From positions 1 through 64,000 of the forward strand of contig NZ_JOAK01000002.1 of assembly GCF_000720455.1 (NCBI RefSeq): a DNA stretch of 64,000 nt, read 5' to 3'. Positions 19,973-54,541 of this stretch are shown here, in pieces. The position numbers were made by a program, and so were the translations under genes. Source of the stretch: Streptomyces virginiae. GTDB lineage: Bacteria; Actinomycetota; Actinomycetes; Streptomycetales; Streptomycetaceae. The notes beneath the pieces are model-generated. The model saw only the letters and a program-made list of their open reading frames with translations. It searched no databases and was not told where the DNA came from. Each line of letters begins with the position of its first letter. Positions within the stretch are counted from its first letter, which is position 1.

Positions 19973-20575
19973 CTACGCGCCCGGCGCCGTGTGCTTGGCC
20001 GCGATGCTGCGGGCCGTGTCCGAGTCGGGCCCGGGCTGCGGCACGAAGACCGCCTCCCGGTAGTAGCGCAGCTCGGTGATGGAGTCCTGGATGTCCGCCA
20101 GCGCCCGGTGGTTGCCGTTCTTCGGGGGGCTGTTGAAGTAGGCCCGCGGGTACCAGCGGCGCGCCAGCTCCTTGACCGAGGACACGTCCACGATCCGGTA
20201 GTGCAGGTAGCTCTCCAGGGCGGCCATGTCGCGCAGCAGGAAGCCGCGGTCGGTGCCGACCGAGTTCCCGCAGAGCGGCGCCTTGCGCGGTTCCTTCACG
20301 TGCTCCCGCACGTACGCCAGGACCTGCGCCTCGGCGTCCGCGAGGGTGGTTCCTCCGGCCAGCTCGTCGAGCAGGCCGGAGGCGGTGTGCATCTCGCGGA
20401 CCACGTCGGGCATGGTCTCCAGGGCCGCGTCCGGCGGGCGGATCACGATGTCCACGCCCTCGCCGAGCACGTTGAGCTCCGAGTCGGTGACCAGTGCGGC
20501 CACCTCGATAAGTGCGTCGTCCGTCAGCGAGAGCCCGGTCATCTCGCAGTCGATCCACACCATGCGATCGTTCAT
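19973..20575 (-). CDS. orn: oligoribonuclease
   Basis: 200 residues, a DEDDh 3'-5' exonuclease. Exo I is WIDCEMTGL (residues 7-15), Exo II lies around [13 protein letters not shown], and Exo III is [11 protein letters not shown] near residue 158. It degrades di- to penta-ribonucleotides, including pGpG from c-di-GMP turnover, and its mutation affects Streptomyces development. ATG 20575 is chosen because [14 protein letters not shown] matches the family N terminus and GGTGGGA precedes it; the GTG at 20584 would overlap that signal. It lies 105 bases after adpA on the same strand, with two hairpins between. Confidence 0.95.
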
Positions 20576-20586
20576 GTGTCCCACCT

Positions 20587-20680: not shown

Positions 20681-21853
20681 TTACGCGTGTTCGCGCAGGA
20701 CCCGGCCCGGGGCGTACAGCTCCGTGACCGTGGGACCCGCAGCGGCCAGGGCCGCCGCCGCCCGGTGGGGCTGCGGAGTGCGCTGGTGCGGAACCGGCCC
20801 GCCGGAGATCTCCGAGACCTGTGCCACGTCGGCCTGCGGGCGGCGTGCCCGGTAGGCGGAGCGGTACGCGGCCGGGGAGGACCCCAGCTGCCGGCGGAAG
20901 TGACCGCGCAGGGCGACCGGCGAGCGGAACCCGCAGCGTCCGGCGACCTCGTCGACCGAGTAGTCGGAGGTCTCCAGCAGCCGCTGGGCCTGCAGCACCC
21001 GCTGCGTGATCAGCCACTGGAGCGGCGCGCTGCCGGTGAGCGAACGGAACCGCCGGTCGAAGGTACGCCTGCTCATGTAGGCGCGGGCGGCGAGGGTCTC
21101 CACGTCGAACTGCTCGTGGAGGTGTTCCAGCGCCCAGGCGACGACCTCGGCCAGCGGGTCGGCACCGATCTCCTCCGGCAGCGACCGGTCGAGGTAGCGC
21201 TCCTGTCCGCCCGTGCGGCGCGGCGGCACGACGAGCCTGCGGGCCAGGGCCCCGGCCGCCTCGCTGCCGTGGTCGGTGCGCACGATGTGCAGGCACAGGT
21301 CGATTCCGGCCGCCGTGCCCGCGGACGTGAGCACATCGCCGTCGTCGACGAACAGTTCGCGCGGGTCGACGTGCACGGACGGGTAGCGCTTGGCCAGCGT
21401 CGGCGCGTACATCCAGTGCGTCGTCGCGGGCCGGCCGTCCAGCAGACCGGCGGCCGCGAGCACGAAGGCCCCGGTGCACAGTCCGACGATCCGGGCCCCC
21501 TCCTCGTGCGCCAGACGCAGTGCGTCGAGCGCCTCCGGAGGCGGCGGTGAAGTGATGGAGCGCCAGGCGGGAACGACGACCGTGCCTGCCCGGGCGATCG
21601 CCTCCAACCCGTATGGCGCGGTCAGTTCGAGTCCGCCGGTGGTCCTGAGCGGACCGTCCTCACCGGCGCACACGAGCAGTCGGTAGCGTGGAACTCCCGC
21701 GTCCTGCCGGTCAATGCCGAACACGGATAGTGGAATGGAGCTCTCGAAGATCGGTCCGCCGCTGAAGAGCAGCACCGCGACGATCTCCCTGCGGCGACGC
21801 CCCGCGAGCTTCCGGCCGGCGTCTGCGACGACGGCGGTGGAATCCTGGCTCAT
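20681..21853 (-). CDS. adpA: global regulator AdpA (BldH), without a TTA codon
   Basis: 390 residues. The N-terminal DJ-1/PfpI-like dimerisation domain (about 24-205; VVPAWRS, GLCTGAFVLAAAGLL) is followed by an AraC/XylS DNA-binding domain (about 235-335) with ARAYMSRRTFDRRF and a CGFRSPVALRGHFRR second helix-turn-helix. AdpA governs morphological differentiation and secondary metabolism. In other streptomycetes the gene carries a TTA leucine codon between the domains that makes it depend on bldA tRNA. Reading every line from 20681 to 21853, I find no TAA trinucleotide on the plus strand, so no TTA leucine codon exists in this gene. A consensus AdpA site lies 238 bases upstream of the start. 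The neighbour orn is the expected one. Confidence 0.96.
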   Translation of the reverse strand: MSQDSTAVVADAGRKLAGRRRREIVAVLLFSGGPIFESSIPLSVFGIDRQDAGVPRYRLLVCAGEDGPLRTTGGLELTAPYGLEAIARAGTVVVPAWRSITSPPPPEALDALRLAHEEGARIVGLCTGAFVLAAAGLLDGRPATTHWMYAPTLAKRYPSVHVDPRELFVDDGDVLTSAGTAAGIDLCLHIVRTDHGSEAAGALARRLVVPPRRTGGQERYLDRSLPEEIGADPLAEVVAWALEHLHEQFDVETLAARAYMSRRTFDRRFRSLTGSAPLQWLITQRVLQAQRLLETSDYSVDEVAGRCGFRSPVALRGHFRRQLGSSPAAYRSAYRARRPQADVAQVSEISGGPVPHQRTPQPHRAAAALAAAGPTVTELYAPGRVLREHA

Positions 21854-22090
21854 GGCGCTAAGCCCCCCTTGGGTGTCGCGACTCCTTGGTCTGGTCGCAC
21901 CTGCACGTTTCCCCTCGGCCTTGCACGTGGATCCCCCGCCGTAAATACATGATCGAATCTACTGCGTCCCGTGGTGTCGGCGTGACAAGTTCAGCACGCA
22001 GCGCTATGTCGACTTCTCAACTTGGCGAAAAGCATTCGATCAGGAAGCGTTCCACTCCGCTACCCGGGTGGGAAGCGCGGATCGCGCCTG

Positions 22091-47188: not shown

Positions 47189-47581
47189 TTACAGATCATA
47201 CGGGTAGAGCTGAATTTCGGAGGCCCGGAAGGAAATGAAACCCTCCACAGGAAGCTCCGACCTTCGGTTAGGGATTTCAATCAGGAGAATGTCCGACCCT
47301 ACCCTGATCTCCACGACCGAATCATCACCATCGTCGAATCTGACAACTCGGCCCGTGATGAGGGTGGCAGAATCCGCCCCGACCTCCGAGAGGGAAGTAG
47401 CACCCGAGGGGCCCGCCGTCCAATCTGCGACCTCTTCCGGAACTTCGATCTCGACATCGAATTGACCTACTTCGGCGGGGTTCGACCCCATCCAGCGGCC
47501 AGATGCGATGCCAGACTCGCACTTGAAGCGCACGATCCCTTGCGATGGGGCTAGGACTTGCAGAACTTCTACTCTCATCAT
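47189..47581 (-). CDS. putative immunity protein of the RHS toxin
   Basis: 130 residues, acidic, beta-rich and cytoplasmic (MMRVEVLQVLAPSQGIVRFK ... SEIQLYPYDL), with no signal peptide. ATG 47581 overlaps the toxin stop in ATGATGA, so it is translated with the toxin. The GC content is well below that of the neighbours, like the toxin tip. By analogy with polymorphic toxin systems it should bind and neutralise the C-terminal tip in the producing cell. I recognise no immunity family. Confidence 0.75.
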   Translation of the reverse strand: MMRVEVLQVLAPSQGIVRFKCESGIASGRWMGSNPAEVGQFDVEIEVPEEVADWTAGPSGATSLSEVGADSATLITGRVVRFDDGDDSVVEIRVGSDILLIEIPNRRSELPVEGFISFRASEIQLYPYDL

Positions 47582-50500
47582 TTCACCCCCAAGGGAACTC
47601 GCTGCATCGTATTGCCGACAGTCCATGTGTTTGTGACGGAGTTCCAATCCCACGTCTCCATATGGAAGTGGAACTTCGTGGGCTTGCTGTTCATCTCATG
47701 ATCGCCCATCCGGATGCTACGGCGCCCATCGGAAGATACGAGACGGTTGGGATCCACCTGCCCAGTTCGCGGGTGAATATTTGTGTACGGGCCAGGCCCC
47801 AAGAAATCACTCCACGCCTGATCGGCCTGAGAAGGCTTAAGGGGCTTGGGGGCTGTGACCTCCGGCAGGTTTTTGACTGTTTCGGCAGGCGGACAGTTTG
47901 AATTGTGAACCAGGACCGGCGTAGCCCCTGCCAGCACATAGTACGTGTGGAAGTCGGCCACGGAGAAGTTGTAGGTCTTGACGTGGTCGGTGAATGCGCG
48001 GTTGTCCGTGACGATCGCAGTGGTTCCGCCTGCGGTTGCCAGGGTCATGCCCGGCCGGAGGTCGGCGGCCTCGACCCAGGACTTCTCAGAGGGCGACCAG
48101 AAGGGGTGCTCGTGCGTTGCAGTGATTTCGTCGATGCCGTCGGATGTGGCGATGGAGAGCTTGTTCAGTTCGCGATCGCCCTCCGTCCGGATGAGTTTCT
48201 CGACTGGTTTGGCTTCCGACTCGCCCGTAACCGGATCGGTGGCGAGAACGAGGTCGCCAACTTCGACCTCCTCGATCTTCTTCTGCGAGCCGTCCGCCAT
48301 GAGGACAAGCGTTCCGGCGAGGAAGCATTGCCCCCCCTTCGTCTTCCCCGGACGCAGGAATTTGGGGCCGGGAAGCAGATATGCGAAGAAACCGCCGCCG
48401 ATGGCAGCACCTGAATCGAGATCCAGACCCTGTTCCGTGGCCCAGTTGTCGAACATGTCACCCTCGTTGCACTCGGGTGAGGTATTCAGGAAGCACTCGG
48501 GCGAGATTGTCAGCTCGGCACTGAATTCGGCGCTGTGGATCGCTGCACTTGCAAACCCGGCTGCCGCATTTGCAGGCGGAGCCCCGTCGAAGCCCTTCGC
48601 CGGGGTGCAGAAGCGCACGCCGGCGCAGCGCTTGCCGTCGCCCTTCGGCGTCTTGGACGGCTTGGGAGGGGCGCTGCAGTTCTTCCAGCAGCGGCCCTCG
48701 TAGTACCTCTTGTGATGCTTGGTCGCGGCCTGGACGACGCTCTGGGGCGACGACTGGAAGCCGCGGTCCTCGTTGCCGCCCTCGAAGTACTTGAGGCCGT
48801 CAGGGTCGGAGTAGGTGAACGGGTTGTTAGCGGCGTAGGTGTAGCCGTGGAGTTGCTGGGAGTCGGTGAGGTCCATGATCGGGTCCACCGAGATGAAGCG
48901 GCCGATCAGGGGGTCGTACTCGCGGGCGCCGATGTGGGTCAGGCCGCTGTCGTTGTCCTTCGTGCCTCCGACGAAGGTCTTCTCGCCGGTCCACGTCGTC
49001 GGCTGGGTGCCGCGGGTCTCGCCGAACAGGCCCGTCTTGCGGCGGGTGACCGTCTGGGTCGCGTCGGCGGTCACCTGGGTGGTGCTGGTGTTGTGGTGGT
49101 CCGCGAAGGTGAAGGTGAGCTTGCCGCCTGTGCGGACGCCGACGTCGCCGTAGTAGCGAGTGCCGGTGATCGTGCCCGACTTGTCGAGCTTCAGCTCATT
49201 GCCGGACGGCAGGTACAGCGTGGTGCTGTCCTTCTCCTTGCGGAGGATGCGGTTGCCGGACGCGTCGTAGATGAACCCGTCGGTGGCGAGGCCCTGGACG
49301 AGGGACTTGAGGCGCCCCTCCGCGTCCCAGTCGAGGTACTGCGTTTCACCGGTGCCGCTCTTGCGGGTCTTGGTGTTGCCGGTGGCGTCGTAGGTGAATG
49401 TTTCGTCGTGCGGGGCGGTGCCGGTCTGGGTGACCTTCGGAAGGTCGTGCTTACCGGGCGTCGGGGGAGCGTAGGTGCGGACCGTGTCTGCGGTCGGGCC
49501 CGAGGCCGTCTTGTGCTTGGTCTCCGTCTTGCGGTTGCCGACGGCGTCGTAGGTGTACGTGGTCCAGTACGGGTCCTCGCCGCCGATGACGGTGGCCGAC
49601 GGGGTGGTCGCGCAGGTCTCACCCTCGTTGGTCCACGCCTCGGTGATGCGGCGCAGGGAGTCGAGGTTGACGCACTGGGTGTCCGTCGTCCGGGAGGCGT
49701 CCTGGCCATAGGCCGAGGCGATCGCCGTTACATTGCCGACGGGGTCATTGGTGTACTTGGTCTCCTCGATCCGCTGGGGTGCCAGGGCCCGGTCGACGAC
49801 GGTGCGGGTGAGGGCACCAGTGTGCTCGTCGTACTCGTTCGTCCGGTACAGGCTCTGGGTGGACGAGCCGAGCTCCTGGCGGATCGCGCGGCCGTAGTGG
49901 TCGTACGTCATCGCCCCGACGAGGCGACTGCTGCCGGCGCCCATGCTGTTGAGCAGGCCCGAGACGGTTTTGTAGGTGCTGCCGTGGGTCTCGGCCGGGA
50001 GGCCGCCCATGGCCGGGTGCCTGGTCGTGAGGACCTGGCCGGCGATGTTGTAGGTGTTCGTCCACTTGTACGTACCGGCCATCGCGCCGGTGTCGGGCGT
50101 GGACGGGATCGTGACCTGGGTTTCGAGCGGCTGGTAGAGGTCGTTGTAGGAAAGAACCTCCGAGGTGTACGCCTTGCCGTCGACATGGCGCGTGGACTTG
50201 GTGAGCTGCCCCTTGGCCACCGTGTCGTAGACGGACGACGTCAGCGTCGTCGCGCCCTGCTTCGTGGCGACGGCGCGACCGAGGTCGTCGTAGTCGGTGT
50301 GCAGAGTGATGCCTCGGGCATCCGTGACATCGGTGACGCGGTCCCCAGAGTCGTACGCCGTCTTGGAGACGCCCTTGTCGGGGTCGTTCACCTCGACCTG
50401 GCGGCCACGGACGTCGTAGGTGTACGTCCACTTGGCGTTGCCCGGGTCGGTGACCTGGGCCAGCTGACCGAGTTTGTTGTAGGTGTACAGGGTCGACTGC

Positions 50501-53500
50501 GAGGCGGTGCGCGCCGGGTCGGTGTACTGCTTGGTCTCGACCGTGCGCCCCAGTGCGTCGACGACGGTGGTGGTCGTAGTGCCGCCCGGGGGCGGGCTGA
50601 CCGTGGTGGTGTCGCCGGTGTAGCTGCTCGTGGTGCGCTTGGTCTCGGTACCGAACTTCTTCGCGATCACCGCCGTCGGGCGGCCGGCGCCGTCGAAGAA
50701 GGTGTCGGTGGAGGCGGGGTAGTTGAGTTCCTGTCCCGTGACCAGGTCGGTCGAAGGCGCGCCCTCGGCGTAGTACGTACCGGAGGAACGCCACGCCAGG
50801 CCGCGGGTGTCGTAGAACGTCTCCGTGACCAGACGGCCGGACAGGTCGGGCGACTGGGTCTGCGTCTGGCGCTCACGCAGCAGACCGTCGTGGATGGAGT
50901 GGACGACGGAGTACTTGTAGTCGTGCGTCAGGGTTTTTGACGTGACCACGTTGGGACCGCTGTTGCGGACGTTGTACTCGAACACCCGGCTCGGCAGGTC
51001 CGGGTTGGCCTCCTGGGTCCAGTTCGGGACCCAGACCTTCGTGACCCGGCCCAGTGCGTCGTACGCCGTCGTGACGACCTTGCCGTTGGGGTCGGTGACC
51101 TTGGTGGCCTGGCCGCGCAGCGGGTCGAGCTGGCTGGTGGCGGCGTGGCCGAGCGCGTTGGTCGCCGTCATCGACGTCGGGACCTCGCCGGTGGCCGGGG
51201 TGTACGCGGTGGTGGTCACCTTGCCGTAGGCGTCGGCGGCAGCCAGCGCCCGGCCGTACAGGTCGTAGCAGAGCTGGTCCTTGGCCGCGCCACAGGTGGA
51301 CGGGACACTCGACGCCGTGTCGTAGCCGTCGCCCTTGCCGTTGATCTTCTCGGTCTTCGTCACCAGACCCCGGCCGGGTACGGTGCCGAGCGTGCCGTTG
51401 TCGAAGTAGGTCCGGGTGTCGCTGATGACGTCCGCCGGACCGGCACCGGTCGTCCCGCACGGCAGCGCGACGGTCTTGACCTGGCTTTGCCGGTCCAGGA
51501 TCCACGTGGCCGTGTTGCGTGCGTAGGTGGTCGTGGTGCAGGACTCGTCACCGCTCTTGGCGGTGTCGCCGGTGCTCGACTGCCAGTCGGCCATGCCGTA
51601 CTCGTCGAAGTGCCGGCTGGTCTCGGTCGTCCGGGCACCACCGGTGACGGTGGTGCGGGTCGACTCCTTCTCGACGTTCGTCTTGTAGGAGGTGAGGTTG
51701 GGCAGCCCCGGTCGCAGCCGCTTGGCCACCTCGCCCGAACGCCACGGTGTGCTGGACGTCGCGCTCAGGAGCTTGGCCGTGTCGTCTCCCTCGTACGTCG
51801 CCGTCTCGCGGACCATGCCCGCGAACTCGGGCCGGTCGGTGACCGCGGTGCCTGTGCCGTCCTTGACGTCCTTGCCGTCGAGACCCCGGAAGTAGCGGGT
51901 CTCCGACAGCGTCTTCGGGTCACTGGCCGCACCGGTGCGGGTCTGGACGAGTTCGTAGCCGCGGGCGACGGAGTGGACGCGGTCCTCGGCCTTGATGAAC
52001 TCGCTGGTGTCCTTGTCCCAGGCCGCTCCGCCGACGTAGGTGTACGAGGTCACCTTGTCGGGTGTCGAGGCGAGGTTGTCGCCCTCCACGACCTGGTTGA
52101 CGACGTAGGTGTTGAACCAGTCGAGCTTGGAGGCATCGCCCTCCCAGGCCCACTTGACCGGGAAGCAGCGGGTGGTGTTCGTTCCGTCCGAGGCAGGAAG
52201 CGTGGTGGGTGTGCAGTCCTGTTGCGAGTAGGTGACACCGATGGTGCCGCCGGACTCGGTGTTGACCTGTGACATGCGCAGGCGGACGTACGGGGCCAGA
52301 CCGTCGCCGGTTTTGTCCACCCGGTTCGCCCGCTGTACGCCCTCGAAGGTGACCGGGTCGAGCGGGACGTCCTGCGCGGAGCCCGCCTTGGCCGTGCGGG
52401 AGATGGACTTAAGCCACATCGGGGTGGAGATGCCGTCGCCCGCCGGCGGGAAGTTCTGGTCCAGGGTCCAGGAGTCGACGTCCTGGTACGCGCCGCCGGT
52501 GAGGAGCTTGGTGTGGATGCCGGTCAGGCGCATCCGGGACCAGAACGTCGGTGAGTACTGGCCCTTGCACTCCGTCGAGCCGTCCTTGCAGAACAGGTCG
52601 TACGGGGAGTCCGGCCAGTTCTTCGCGTTGGCCTCGTCGAAGGTGCCGCAGTTGGTGAGGCAGCGCTCGTCGACACCGAACTTCACCTGAGCCATGGCCT
52701 TGCCGCTGTAGACGGCGTCGGAGCGCAGCCCGTAGTCGATGTGGTCGAGCCAGCCGCCGCGGACGTACTGCGTGACCGTTGCCTTGCCGGTGGTCATGTC
52801 GACGTTGCGGCCGTAGTTGTTGGTCTCGGTCTTCCAGTAGTACGCCATCGCGTCGCCGCCGGGGGTGACGACGTAGTCGAGCTGCCAGCGCCAGGCCTGC
52901 TTGCACGAGGCGCTCGCGAACGAGGCGTTGTAGCAGGGCTCACCCGCCTGGTTGCCGAAGACGGGCGCGGTCCAGGCCGAGTTCGTCGTCGGCGTGGAGG
53001 CGTCCTTCCAGCCCGGGAGACGGTTCAGACCGAAGAAGTACTGGGTACCGTCGGTCGTGGTGATCTTCCAGTGCTCGCCGTCGTTGTCGCCGTTGACGGC
53101 GCCGGTGAGCTTCTCGACCTTCTCGCCCGAGTCCGAGGCCGGGTGCCAGCCCTTGCCCTGCTCGTACACGAGCTCGGTCGACTTGCCGCCCAGGGACAAC
53201 GTGGCGTTGTCGTTGAACCAGCACTGGTCGCCGACCTTGGCGGTGTTGGTGCCACCGGTCTTGTCGTCGTTGCAGGGCTTGTACTTGCGCTCGATGAAGC
53301 CGGGCTCCCAGCTCCAGCCGTCACCGATCCATGAGCCCTGGCTGTTGGATATGCCCGTGCGGCCGTCGACGGACTGGGAGTTGTAGCCGAGCGAGATCTG
53401 CGGACCCAGACCGCCGGGCACCGCGGGGGTTGCGACCGGGTAGGACCAGGAGAAGGCGCCGGTCGAGCCGCCGGCGCTCCACGAGCCGGAGGGCTGCAGC

Positions 53501-54333
53501 GACGTCGCCTTGTAGTCACCTGTCGGGCCCGCGTCGCCCGCCGTCGTGGCGAGGACGGTCGCGCCGCCCGAAGCCGCGGATGCCGACTTTGCCGACACGC
53601 CTGCGGACTTGGCCGAAGAAGCCGTGCCCTGCGTGGTCACCTGCGCCGAGAGCTTGCCGGCGCGGGTGTCGTTCTGAGTCTGCAGTGGCTTCTGGGTACG
53701 GCACTCCGCGCGTTCCGGAGTCGTCAGCGCACACGCCGGAAGCTCCACCAGCCGCAGTCGGGAGGCGTAGTCGCCGCCGTATGCGCCGCGGAAGGAGTTG
53801 TAGTCCACCTCGACCTTCGCCGGCGCGGCTTGCGCACGGCCGTCCGACCGGCCGACCGACAGAAGGACGCCGTCAATGCCCGCCTTGCGCGCCGCGTCCT
53901 TGCCGACGACGGAGACCTTCACCTTCGACGGCGCTTCGGCCGCCTTGCCCGGCGGCACGTAGACCGCGACCGGGAGCTTGCCGGCCTGCGGCGAGCCCGG
54001 GTCGACGACCGGCCCGCGAGCGGCACCCGACAGGAACGACTTCGAGACCGGCTCCGAGGCAGCCGAAGTCAGGCTCACCTCCGCCGAACCGGCAGCCGGC
54101 CAGGAGACCTTCGGCGCCTTCCACGGAGTCGCACCCGCATCATCGGCCTTCTTCGCGCCACCCGCGCGGACCGGCTTGACCGGTACCGCCTTCGGCTGCT
54201 TGAGCTCCGGCAGCGACGGCTTGGATTTGCCATCCGCTACGGCTACAGCGCTGGGCAACAAGCCCGAGAGGACGGCTGCGGCCAACGCCACAGAAAGTCC
54301 TCGCGCACTGAATTTTCTCACACCCCACCCCAT
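47578..54333 (-). CDS. secreted RHS/HINT polymorphic toxin with a variable C-terminal tip
   Basis: 2251 residues. Signal peptide (1-32, ending SAVAVADG); linker; an SpvB/TcdB-like beta-propeller region (about 270-700, starting GAFSWSYPV); about 700 residues of RHS/YD repeats (1000-1740); and the RHS-associated core YDPLIGRFISVDP near 1803 with NPFTYSDPDGL. A HINT autoprocessing domain follows at 2000-2143, from CFLAGTLV to VLVHN. The last 108 residues (from CPPAETVKN) are a small tip with GDHEMNSKPTKFHFHMETWD. The HINT domain would release the tip. Base composition falls over the last 0.4 kb, as expected of an exchanged tip. The nearest start with a signal peptide is ATG 54333; its ribosome-binding site is weak. 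Confidence 0.92.
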   Translation of the reverse strand: MGWGVRKFSARGLSVALAAAVLSGLLPSAVAVADGKSKPSLPELKQPKAVPVKPVRAGGAKKADDAGATPWKAPKVSWPAAGSAEVSLTSAASEPVSKSFLSGAARGPVVDPGSPQAGKLPVAVYVPPGKAAEAPSKVKVSVVGKDAARKAGIDGVLLSVGRSDGRAQAAPAKVEVDYNSFRGAYGGDYASRLRLVELPACALTTPERAECRTQKPLQTQNDTRAGKLSAQVTTQGTASSAKSAGVSAKSASAASGGATVLATTAGDAGPTGDYKATSLQPSGSWSAGGSTGAFSWSYPVATPAVPGGLGPQISLGYNSQSVDGRTGISNSQGSWIGDGWSWEPGFIERKYKPCNDDKTGGTNTAKVGDQCWFNDNATLSLGGKSTELVYEQGKGWHPASDSGEKVEKLTGAVNGDNDGEHWKITTTDGTQYFFGLNRLPGWKDASTPTTNSAWTAPVFGNQAGEPCYNASFASASCKQAWRWQLDYVVTPGGDAMAYYWKTETNNYGRNVDMTTGKATVTQYVRGGWLDHIDYGLRSDAVYSGKAMAQVKFGVDERCLTNCGTFDEANAKNWPDSPYDLFCKDGSTECKGQYSPTFWSRMRLTGIHTKLLTGGAYQDVDSWTLDQNFPPAGDGISTPMWLKSISRTAKAGSAQDVPLDPVTFEGVQRANRVDKTGDGLAPYVRLRMSQVNTESGGTIGVTYSQQDCTPTTLPASDGTNTTRCFPVKWAWEGDASKLDWFNTYVVNQVVEGDNLASTPDKVTSYTYVGGAAWDKDTSEFIKAEDRVHSVARGYELVQTRTGAASDPKTLSETRYFRGLDGKDVKDGTGTAVTDRPEFAGMVRETATYEGDDTAKLLSATSSTPWRSGEVAKRLRPGLPNLTSYKTNVEKESTRTTVTGGARTTETSRHFDEYGMADWQSSTGDTAKSGDESCTTTTYARNTATWILDRQSQVKTVALPCGTTGAGPADVISDTRTYFDNGTLGTVPGRGLVTKTEKINGKGDGYDTASSVPSTCGAAKDQLCYDLYGRALAAADAYGKVTTTAYTPATGEVPTSMTATNALGHAATSQLDPLRGQATKVTDPNGKVVTTAYDALGRVTKVWVPNWTQEANPDLPSRVFEYNVRNSGPNVVTSKTLTHDYKYSVVHSIHDGLLRERQTQTQSPDLSGRLVTETFYDTRGLAWRSSGTYYAEGAPSTDLVTGQELNYPASTDTFFDGAGRPTAVIAKKFGTETKRTTSSYTGDTTTVSPPPGGTTTTTVVDALGRTVETKQYTDPARTASQSTLYTYNKLGQLAQVTDPGNAKWTYTYDVRGRQVEVNDPDKGVSKTAYDSGDRVTDVTDARGITLHTDYDDLGRAVATKQGATTLTSSVYDTVAKGQLTKSTRHVDGKAYTSEVLSYNDLYQPLETQVTIPSTPDTGAMAGTYKWTNTYNIAGQVLTTRHPAMGGLPAETHGSTYKTVSGLLNSMGAGSSRLVGAMTYDHYGRAIRQELGSSTQSLYRTNEYDEHTGALTRTVVDRALAPQRIEETKYTNDPVGNVTAIASAYGQDASRTTDTQCVNLDSLRRITEAWTNEGETCATTPSATVIGGEDPYWTTYTYDAVGNRKTETKHKTASGPTADTVRTYAPPTPGKHDLPKVTQTGTAPHDETFTYDATGNTKTRKSGTGETQYLDWDAEGRLKSLVQGLATDGFIYDASGNRILRKEKDSTTLYLPSGNELKLDKSGTITGTRYYGDVGVRTGGKLTFTFADHHNTSTTQVTADATQTVTRRKTGLFGETRGTQPTTWTGEKTFVGGTKDNDSGLTHIGAREYDPLIGRFISVDPIMDLTDSQQLHGYTYAANNPFTYSDPDGLKYFEGGNEDRGFQSSPQSVVQAATKHHKRYYEGRCWKNCSAPPKPSKTPKGDGKRCAGVRFCTPAKGFDGAPPANAAAGFASAAIHSAEFSAELTISPECFLNTSPECNEGDMFDNWATEQGLDLDSGAAIGGGFFAYLLPGPKFLRPGKTKGGQCFLAGTLVLMADGSQKKIEEVEVGDLVLATDPVTGESEAKPVEKLIRTEGDRELNKLSIATSDGIDEITATHEHPFWSPSEKSWVEAADLRPGMTLATAGGTTAIVTDNRAFTDHVKTYNFSVADFHTYYVLAGATPVLVHNSNCPPAETVKNLPEVTAPKPLKPSQADQAWSDFLGPGPYTNIHPRTGQVDPNRLVSSDGRRSIRMGDHEMNSKPTKFHFHMETWDWNSVTNTWTVGNTMQRVPLGVK

Positions 54334-54541
54334 GCTTCTAGAAAGATTTACGGCGCAGACTAACAGGCAGAATTCGCTAATCCGACATCCCGGGGAGAGT
54401 CCTGTTCGGGCCAAGGGGAACTTGTGGTCCATATGGGATGACACGCGTCTGACCGACCTAAAAATCGCAGGTCAGGGTGCGGGTGTTGTCGGGGGCTCCG
54501 AGTAGAGTCAGCCCCGTAGATATCGGGCAGATGGAGTTCGT
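54334..54541. promoter_or_regulatory. divergent promoter region of the toxin and the FG-GAP protein
   Basis: 208 bases with AT-rich patches near 54340-54380 and 54460. It has no gene. It must hold the start sites of the two large secreted-protein genes, so they can be co-regulated. I see no known operator. Confidence 0.55.

Follow-up and report, generated by a model that had tools for sequence, protein, structure and literature searches.

Absence of the TTA leucine codon from adpA in a clade of Streptomyces that retains bldA

In Streptomyces, the TTA leucine codon of adpA serves as a textbook example of a translational switch: the codon is rare, and translation waits at it for one special tRNA. 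The canonical gene carries this codon between its two domains, and Chandra and Chater recorded it in 14 of 14 streptomycetes as well as in Kitasatospora setae (PMC4255298). A paper of 2020 describes the TTA as conserved in all adpA sequences (PMC7026642), and a TTA map of 213 species calls the AdpA codon highly conserved and includes one orthogroup, not named there, in which 187 of the 213 have a TTA somewhere in the gene (PMC10327506). A few adpA genes without TTA are mentioned in PMC8653842, which cites Rabyk 2018, and one gene with no UUA at all, adpA-C of Streptomyces sp. C (WP_007264197), has been described (PMC8994273); TTA-free adpA is a kind of gene already known in print. Expression of adpA-C from a strong promoter gave more sporulation and more epsilon-poly-lysine in S. 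albulus (PMC8994273). The UUA is moved or doubled in adpA-SH (Streptomyces sp. HmicA12), adpASn (S. neyagawaensis) and S. albulus adpA, and the printed places of moved codons are near the start of the DNA-binding domain and near the stop (PMC8994273).

The adpA TTA is reported to be the main, but not the entire, cause of the S. coelicolor bldA phenotype (PMC4255298), and an S. ghanaensis bldA mutant still contained AdpA, although less of it (PMC3814723). One report, in which the role of the codon is said to remain "elusive", gives the same AdpA time course for TTA and TTG alleles (citing earlier work) and describes how a change from TTA to CTC turned an adpA transgene into a weaker activator (PMC7875965). 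These allele results suggest that the role of the codon may be wider, or narrower, than the gating of translation. Here, we describe a clade of Streptomyces whose adpA, like adpA-C, contains no UUA; adpA-C was described as one gene, whereas the case made here rests on a survey. Such a clade is a natural experiment, in that its species would have to time AdpA without that checkpoint. Together with six lineages in which the codon has moved, it offers a way to test whether the codon gates the timing of AdpA, sets the pace of folding, or can be dispensed with.

The window gene and its leucine codons

The window, a 64,000-nucleotide stretch of Streptomyces virginiae DNA, contains the features collected in Table 1. 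The family and domains of the adpA product are those of S. coelicolor bldH/SCO2792 and S. griseus adpA, with an N-terminal DJ-1/PfpI domain (PF01965, residues 28-192, 49.3 bits, cut-off 26.6) and a C-terminal AraC/XylS helix-turn-helix (PF12833, residues 254-332, 77 bits, cut-off 33.6). The sequence SRRTFDRR begins at residue 261; the DNA-contacting residues Arg262 and Arg266 known from print are given in S. griseus numbering (PMC8994273). The product is the only close AdpA match in its genome, the nearest paralogue being 52% identical. Seven paralogue loci were read in the same genome, and a TTA occurs only in the open reading frame picked at one of them (L004), which sits off the centre of its locus and may be a neighbouring gene rather than the paralogue. 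Orthology is further supported by the adjoining orn, since ornA lies directly 3' of adpA in S. coelicolor (PMC2936110). With 96-99% identity to the 21 nearest named genes in addition, the identification of this gene as adpA in the earlier note holds.

Table 1. Features of the adpA region, numbered along the window
Feature	Position	Strand	Description
orn (oligoribonuclease)	19973..20584	-	3' neighbour of adpA; NCBIfam equivalog NF003765, 268.7 bits, cut-off 106
adpA	20681..21853	-	390 codons plus stop, 390 aa; DJ-1/PfpI and AraC-type HTH domains; no TTA
Codon 245	21119..21121	-	CTC here; TTA site in 3/353 genomes without it at 225
Codon 225 (Leu of RSLPEE, inter-domain)	21179..21181	-	CTG here; TTA in 302/353 Streptomyces genomes and in 20/20 read from other genera of the family
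Codon 224 (Ser)	21182..21184	-	TCG here; rare TCT in most genomes with TTA at 225
Codon 137	21443..21445	-	CTG here; TTA site in 13/353 genomes without it at 225

A direct count of the 41 leucine codons of the window gene gave 25 CTG, 14 CTC, 1 CTA, 1 TTG and 0 TTA. The trinucleotide TAA does not occur on the plus strand of 20681-21853, so that TTA is absent in every frame; both this and the reading of the inter-domain leucine codons as CTC and CTG only, claimed in the earlier note, were borne out. At the site where the canonical gene is described as carrying its TTA, the window gene has CTG, preceded by TCG rather than TCT and followed by CCG. Unlike adpA-SH, adpASn and S. albulus adpA, the window gene has not moved its UUA but has none.

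By itself this absence would be expected by chance. The 38 gene-like open reading frames of the window hold a single TTA among 1,552 leucine codons, at codon 28 of a 2288-codon frame of uncertain start (47578-54444, minus strand) that has no NCBIfam match at E 1e-20. The absence acquires meaning only because 302 of 353 Streptomyces genomes, and all 20 of those read from other genera of the family, have TTA at codon 225. Sequencing error is ruled out, since the TTA is also missing from the gene in 24 further clade genomes and in 21 named relatives, two sets that may overlap, which have CTG, CTT or TTG at codon 225.

Distribution of the codon in the genus and family

A scan of GTDB species genomes returned 514 related stretches, of which the best 80, all from Streptomyces, were kept. 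Among these 80, 54 have codon 225 as the sole TTA of the gene. The 21 nearest relatives among them, 96-99% identical and comprising S. amritsarensis (the nearest, at 99%), S. katrae, S. cirratus, S. toxytricini, S. antimicrobicus, S. bambusae and strains that bear no species name, have CTG or CTT at this codon and a coding sequence free of TTA, so that the comparison with close relatives proposed in the earlier note extends the absence to all of them. The same 80 include strain H27-C3, which lies outside the clade and also has an adpA without TTA, and genes in which the TTA is relocated, to codon 137 in S. lasiicapitis, S. typhae and S. aurantiacus and to codon 245 in strain MZ04.

For a survey of the genus, 392 Streptomyces genomes were drawn, and an adpA match at E <= 1e-150 was obtained in 384 of them. 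The survey comprises one gene copy from each of 352 of these 392 and from one genome of the family search, 353 in all with that of the window included. The 40 drawn genomes outside it comprise 6 in which no match reached E <= 1e-140 and 34 that all come from 150 listed places, so that the sample is not perfectly even. A single TTA at codon 225 was found in 302 of the 353 genomes. Another 35 have none, 25 of them in the clade of the window and 10 elsewhere, and the remaining 16 carry it at another position, 13 at codon 137 and 3 at codon 245. The clade of the window is the largest TTA-free adpA group found in the survey. No gene among the 353 has two TTA codons, and neither the doubled codon nor the codon near the stop known from print was met. 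Alignments of fewer than 330 residues, which perhaps miss part of the gene, were obtained for 5 of the 353, and each of these has TTA at codon 225. The six genomes without a match at E <= 1e-140 are G211, G338, G049, G072, G111 and G351; G211 and G338 are 100% and 99% complete, and adpA there may be absent, broken up or highly divergent.

From the family search came 51 genomes outside Streptomyces, of which 20 were read; every one of the 20 has TTA at codon 225. Since these genomes and most of the genus share the codon, TTA is the ancestral state and its absence is a loss. The statement of the earlier note that all streptomycetes carry the codon between the two domains does not survive the survey, in which 35 of 353 genomes have no TTA and 16 have it elsewhere.

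Losses, moves and the setting of the codon

A tree of 356 of 360 genes, built after four short alignments had been dropped and with the three variable codons excluded, places the clade of the window on one branch with support 100. Its 46 rows combine named and unnamed entries that may duplicate species. The stem of the clade is long (0.145), and the clade is internally diverse (mean depth 0.113). On a second tree of 116 genes, rooted with six outgroup genes, 16 changes are needed, namely ten losses and six moves, three each to codons 137 and 245, and the well supported branches force these same numbers as minima. Supports on this tree are SH-aLRT values from a quick search with a single gene, and the counts of losses and moves could shift on a genome tree.

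The codon immediately upstream changes along with the TTA. An association scan of 345 codon columns against TTA at codon 225, with the clade of the window excluded (286 genes with the codon, 24 without), ranked codon 224 at the top with 0.89, all other columns reaching 0.54 or below. When named and unnamed loci are pooled, TCT occupies codon 224 in 254 of 286 genes with TTA versus 1 of 70 without. The genus survey gives 260 of 291 genomes with TTA at 225 versus 1 of 51 without, 11 of the 353 genomes having been dropped from this count for lack of an exact SLPEE motif (by subtraction, all 11 have TTA). TCT is otherwise the rarest serine codon of adpA (74/8,540), and in the 20 outgroup genes it is less dominant at this position (9/20). 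Independent pairs on supported branches agreed in direction in 14 of 15 cases (median p 1.2e-4). The relocated codons also tend to follow a T, in 8 of 13 genes at codon 137 versus 40 of 330 without TTA there and in 3 of 3 at codon 245 versus 69 of 346; these are raw counts, uncorrected for relatedness. The T-ending codons concerned are TCT, GGT and CAT. The preceding T is absent from six TTA codons in other genes of the neighbourhood.

We put the probability at about 80% that the TTA at codon 225, now CTG, was lost once in the ancestor of the clade and that translation of AdpA is now free of bldA. On this reading, the ancestral gene would have lost its only TTA together with the rare TCT that preceded it, and the mRNA, having no need for tRNA-Leu(UAA), would be translated whenever it is transcribed. 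The genome would keep bldA for the sake of its other targets. The arrow from BldA to AdpA would be gone at the level of the codon, and that from AdpA to bldA may remain; a rewired AdpA-BldA loop, as proposed in the earlier note, is possible. Judged from codon content, AdpA translation in these species is likely freed from direct dependence on bldA; it may still depend on bldA indirectly, through other TTA genes. The allele results of PMC7875965 and the AdpA remaining in the S. ghanaensis bldA mutant (PMC3814723) count against this reading.

That the codon is instead selected for itself and movable, one TTA in a T-TTA-C setting being needed and, once lost at codon 225, either regained at 137 or 245 or abandoned, is a serious possibility which we hold somewhat short of even odds. 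Moved UUAs have been published for single genes (PMC8994273). Among the 41 leucine columns of 356 genes, TTA is found only at codons 225, 137 and 245; its one-step neighbours TTG and CTA are common at other leucine columns (at codon 59, for example, in 91 of 356) and occur at neither 137 nor 245 in any of the 356. The probability that the six moves forced by well supported branches would fall on at most two distinct sites is 1.8e-5 if 36 leucine sites are equally open and 1.9e-3 if only the 11 other C-followed sites are, a subset picked post hoc. The lack of any doubled TTA and the enrichment of a T-ending codon before all three sites point the same way. Ten lineages, however, lost the codon without replacement and the TTA is therefore not required, and the six neighbourhood TTA codons that lack a preceding T also speak against such a setting. 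Furthermore, within five codons of position 137, two of the three moved lineages are closer to other moved lineages than to their sisters, and the same is true of two of three around codon 245, so that one event may have been spread by exchange of short tracts.

Exchange of this kind could also account for the losses, if a TTA-free tract such as CGG-TCG-CTG-CCG had been swapped between species for AGG-TCT-TTA-CCA in one step. Several neighbouring synonymous changes do accompany losses (between locus L309 and its sister L319, 5% of all codons are different, against 4 of the 21 that surround the TTA site), and the short-range likeness of the moved lineages is of the kind that exchange would leave. 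Nevertheless, the replacement codons vary by lineage (TCG, TCC or TCA at 224; CTG, CTC, CTT or TTG at 225), and most, though not all, of the neighbouring changes run towards G/C-ending codons, as under relaxed selection. The long stem and internal diversity of the clade likewise argue against recombination, which we regard as an improbable source of its TTA-free gene. We are similarly sceptical that the codon is dispensable, coming and going without effect while transcription, RNase III and protein turnover set the timing of AdpA. The 35 genomes without it and the equal time courses of the TTA and TTG alleles cited in PMC7875965 are consistent with that reading, but retention in 302 of 353 genomes of so rare a codon, accompanied by the rare TCT, tells against it.

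Rather than a fixed linker codon, the bldA switch of adpA might be a small movable module, NNT-TTA-C, whose T-ending neighbour is kept only with the TTA; we advance this tentatively and consider it rather doubtful. On this view, a linker codon acting purely as a folding pause would be disfavoured, because codon 137 lies within the DJ-1 domain. Any effect of the T-TTA-C setting on decoding by tRNA-Leu(UAA), whether favourable or not, is a guess, and an AT-rich cluster of rare codons that decays once unselected fits as well. Short-tract exchange may also lie behind the pattern at codons 224 and 225. The codon-224 link, the genus-wide count and the size of the clade were not found in the literature searched.

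bldA, other TTA genes and the adpA leader

The genome of the window contains an intact bldA, a tRNA-Leu with anticodon taa, which answers the question of its presence raised in the earlier note. A bldA match was obtained in 386 of the 392 genomes, including all 24 other members of the clade and the 10 further TTA-free genomes; the tRNA is therefore kept where adpA no longer needs it. ARAGORN assigned the taa anticodon in 11 of 11 matched loci tested, which include 6 from the clade and 2 from other TTA-free genomes. The six genomes without a match (G030, G112, G129, G134, G138 and G167) may have an assembly gap or a divergent bldA. An AdpA-site consensus matched perfectly upstream of bldA in 1 of 31 loci, with the genome of the window counted twice, and was uninformative.

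The tRNA still has work in the genome of the window, since another regulator there, an EAL protein, carries a TTA at codon 277. This protein is perhaps the c-di-GMP enzyme RmdB or CdgC, both names being guesses. The codon-277 TTA is present in this genome and in 3 of 10 others of the clade, and in 0 of 20 outside it; in 7 of those 20 the gene has TTA at one of four other positions, codon 410 in 4 of them. The TTA thus shifts place here too (loci L403, L434, L435 and L442). Its position was too variable for judging a clade-wide drift away from bldA.

The leader of adpA (21854-21960, minus strand) is strongly conserved across the genus and has a G-rich motif, GGGGGGCTTAGC, before the ATG. No Rfam family matched it at the gathering threshold. 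In many genomes an open frame with a GTG start, often of 22 or 25 codons, ends 4 nt before the adpA ATG; by a stricter rule it is found at 239 of 351 loci, and an early stop breaks it in some genomes. A coding test was negative (synonymous to non-synonymous changes 16/79 in frame versus 23/69 and 26/65 in the shifted frames), and the leader looks to be conserved as nucleic acid rather than as a peptide. In-frame TTA codons before the ATG (at -2 and -30) in some members of the clade lie outside the coding sequence and were not counted; in the three cases at -2 that were read, the TTA belongs to the leader motif CTTAGC, put in frame by a 2-nt difference.
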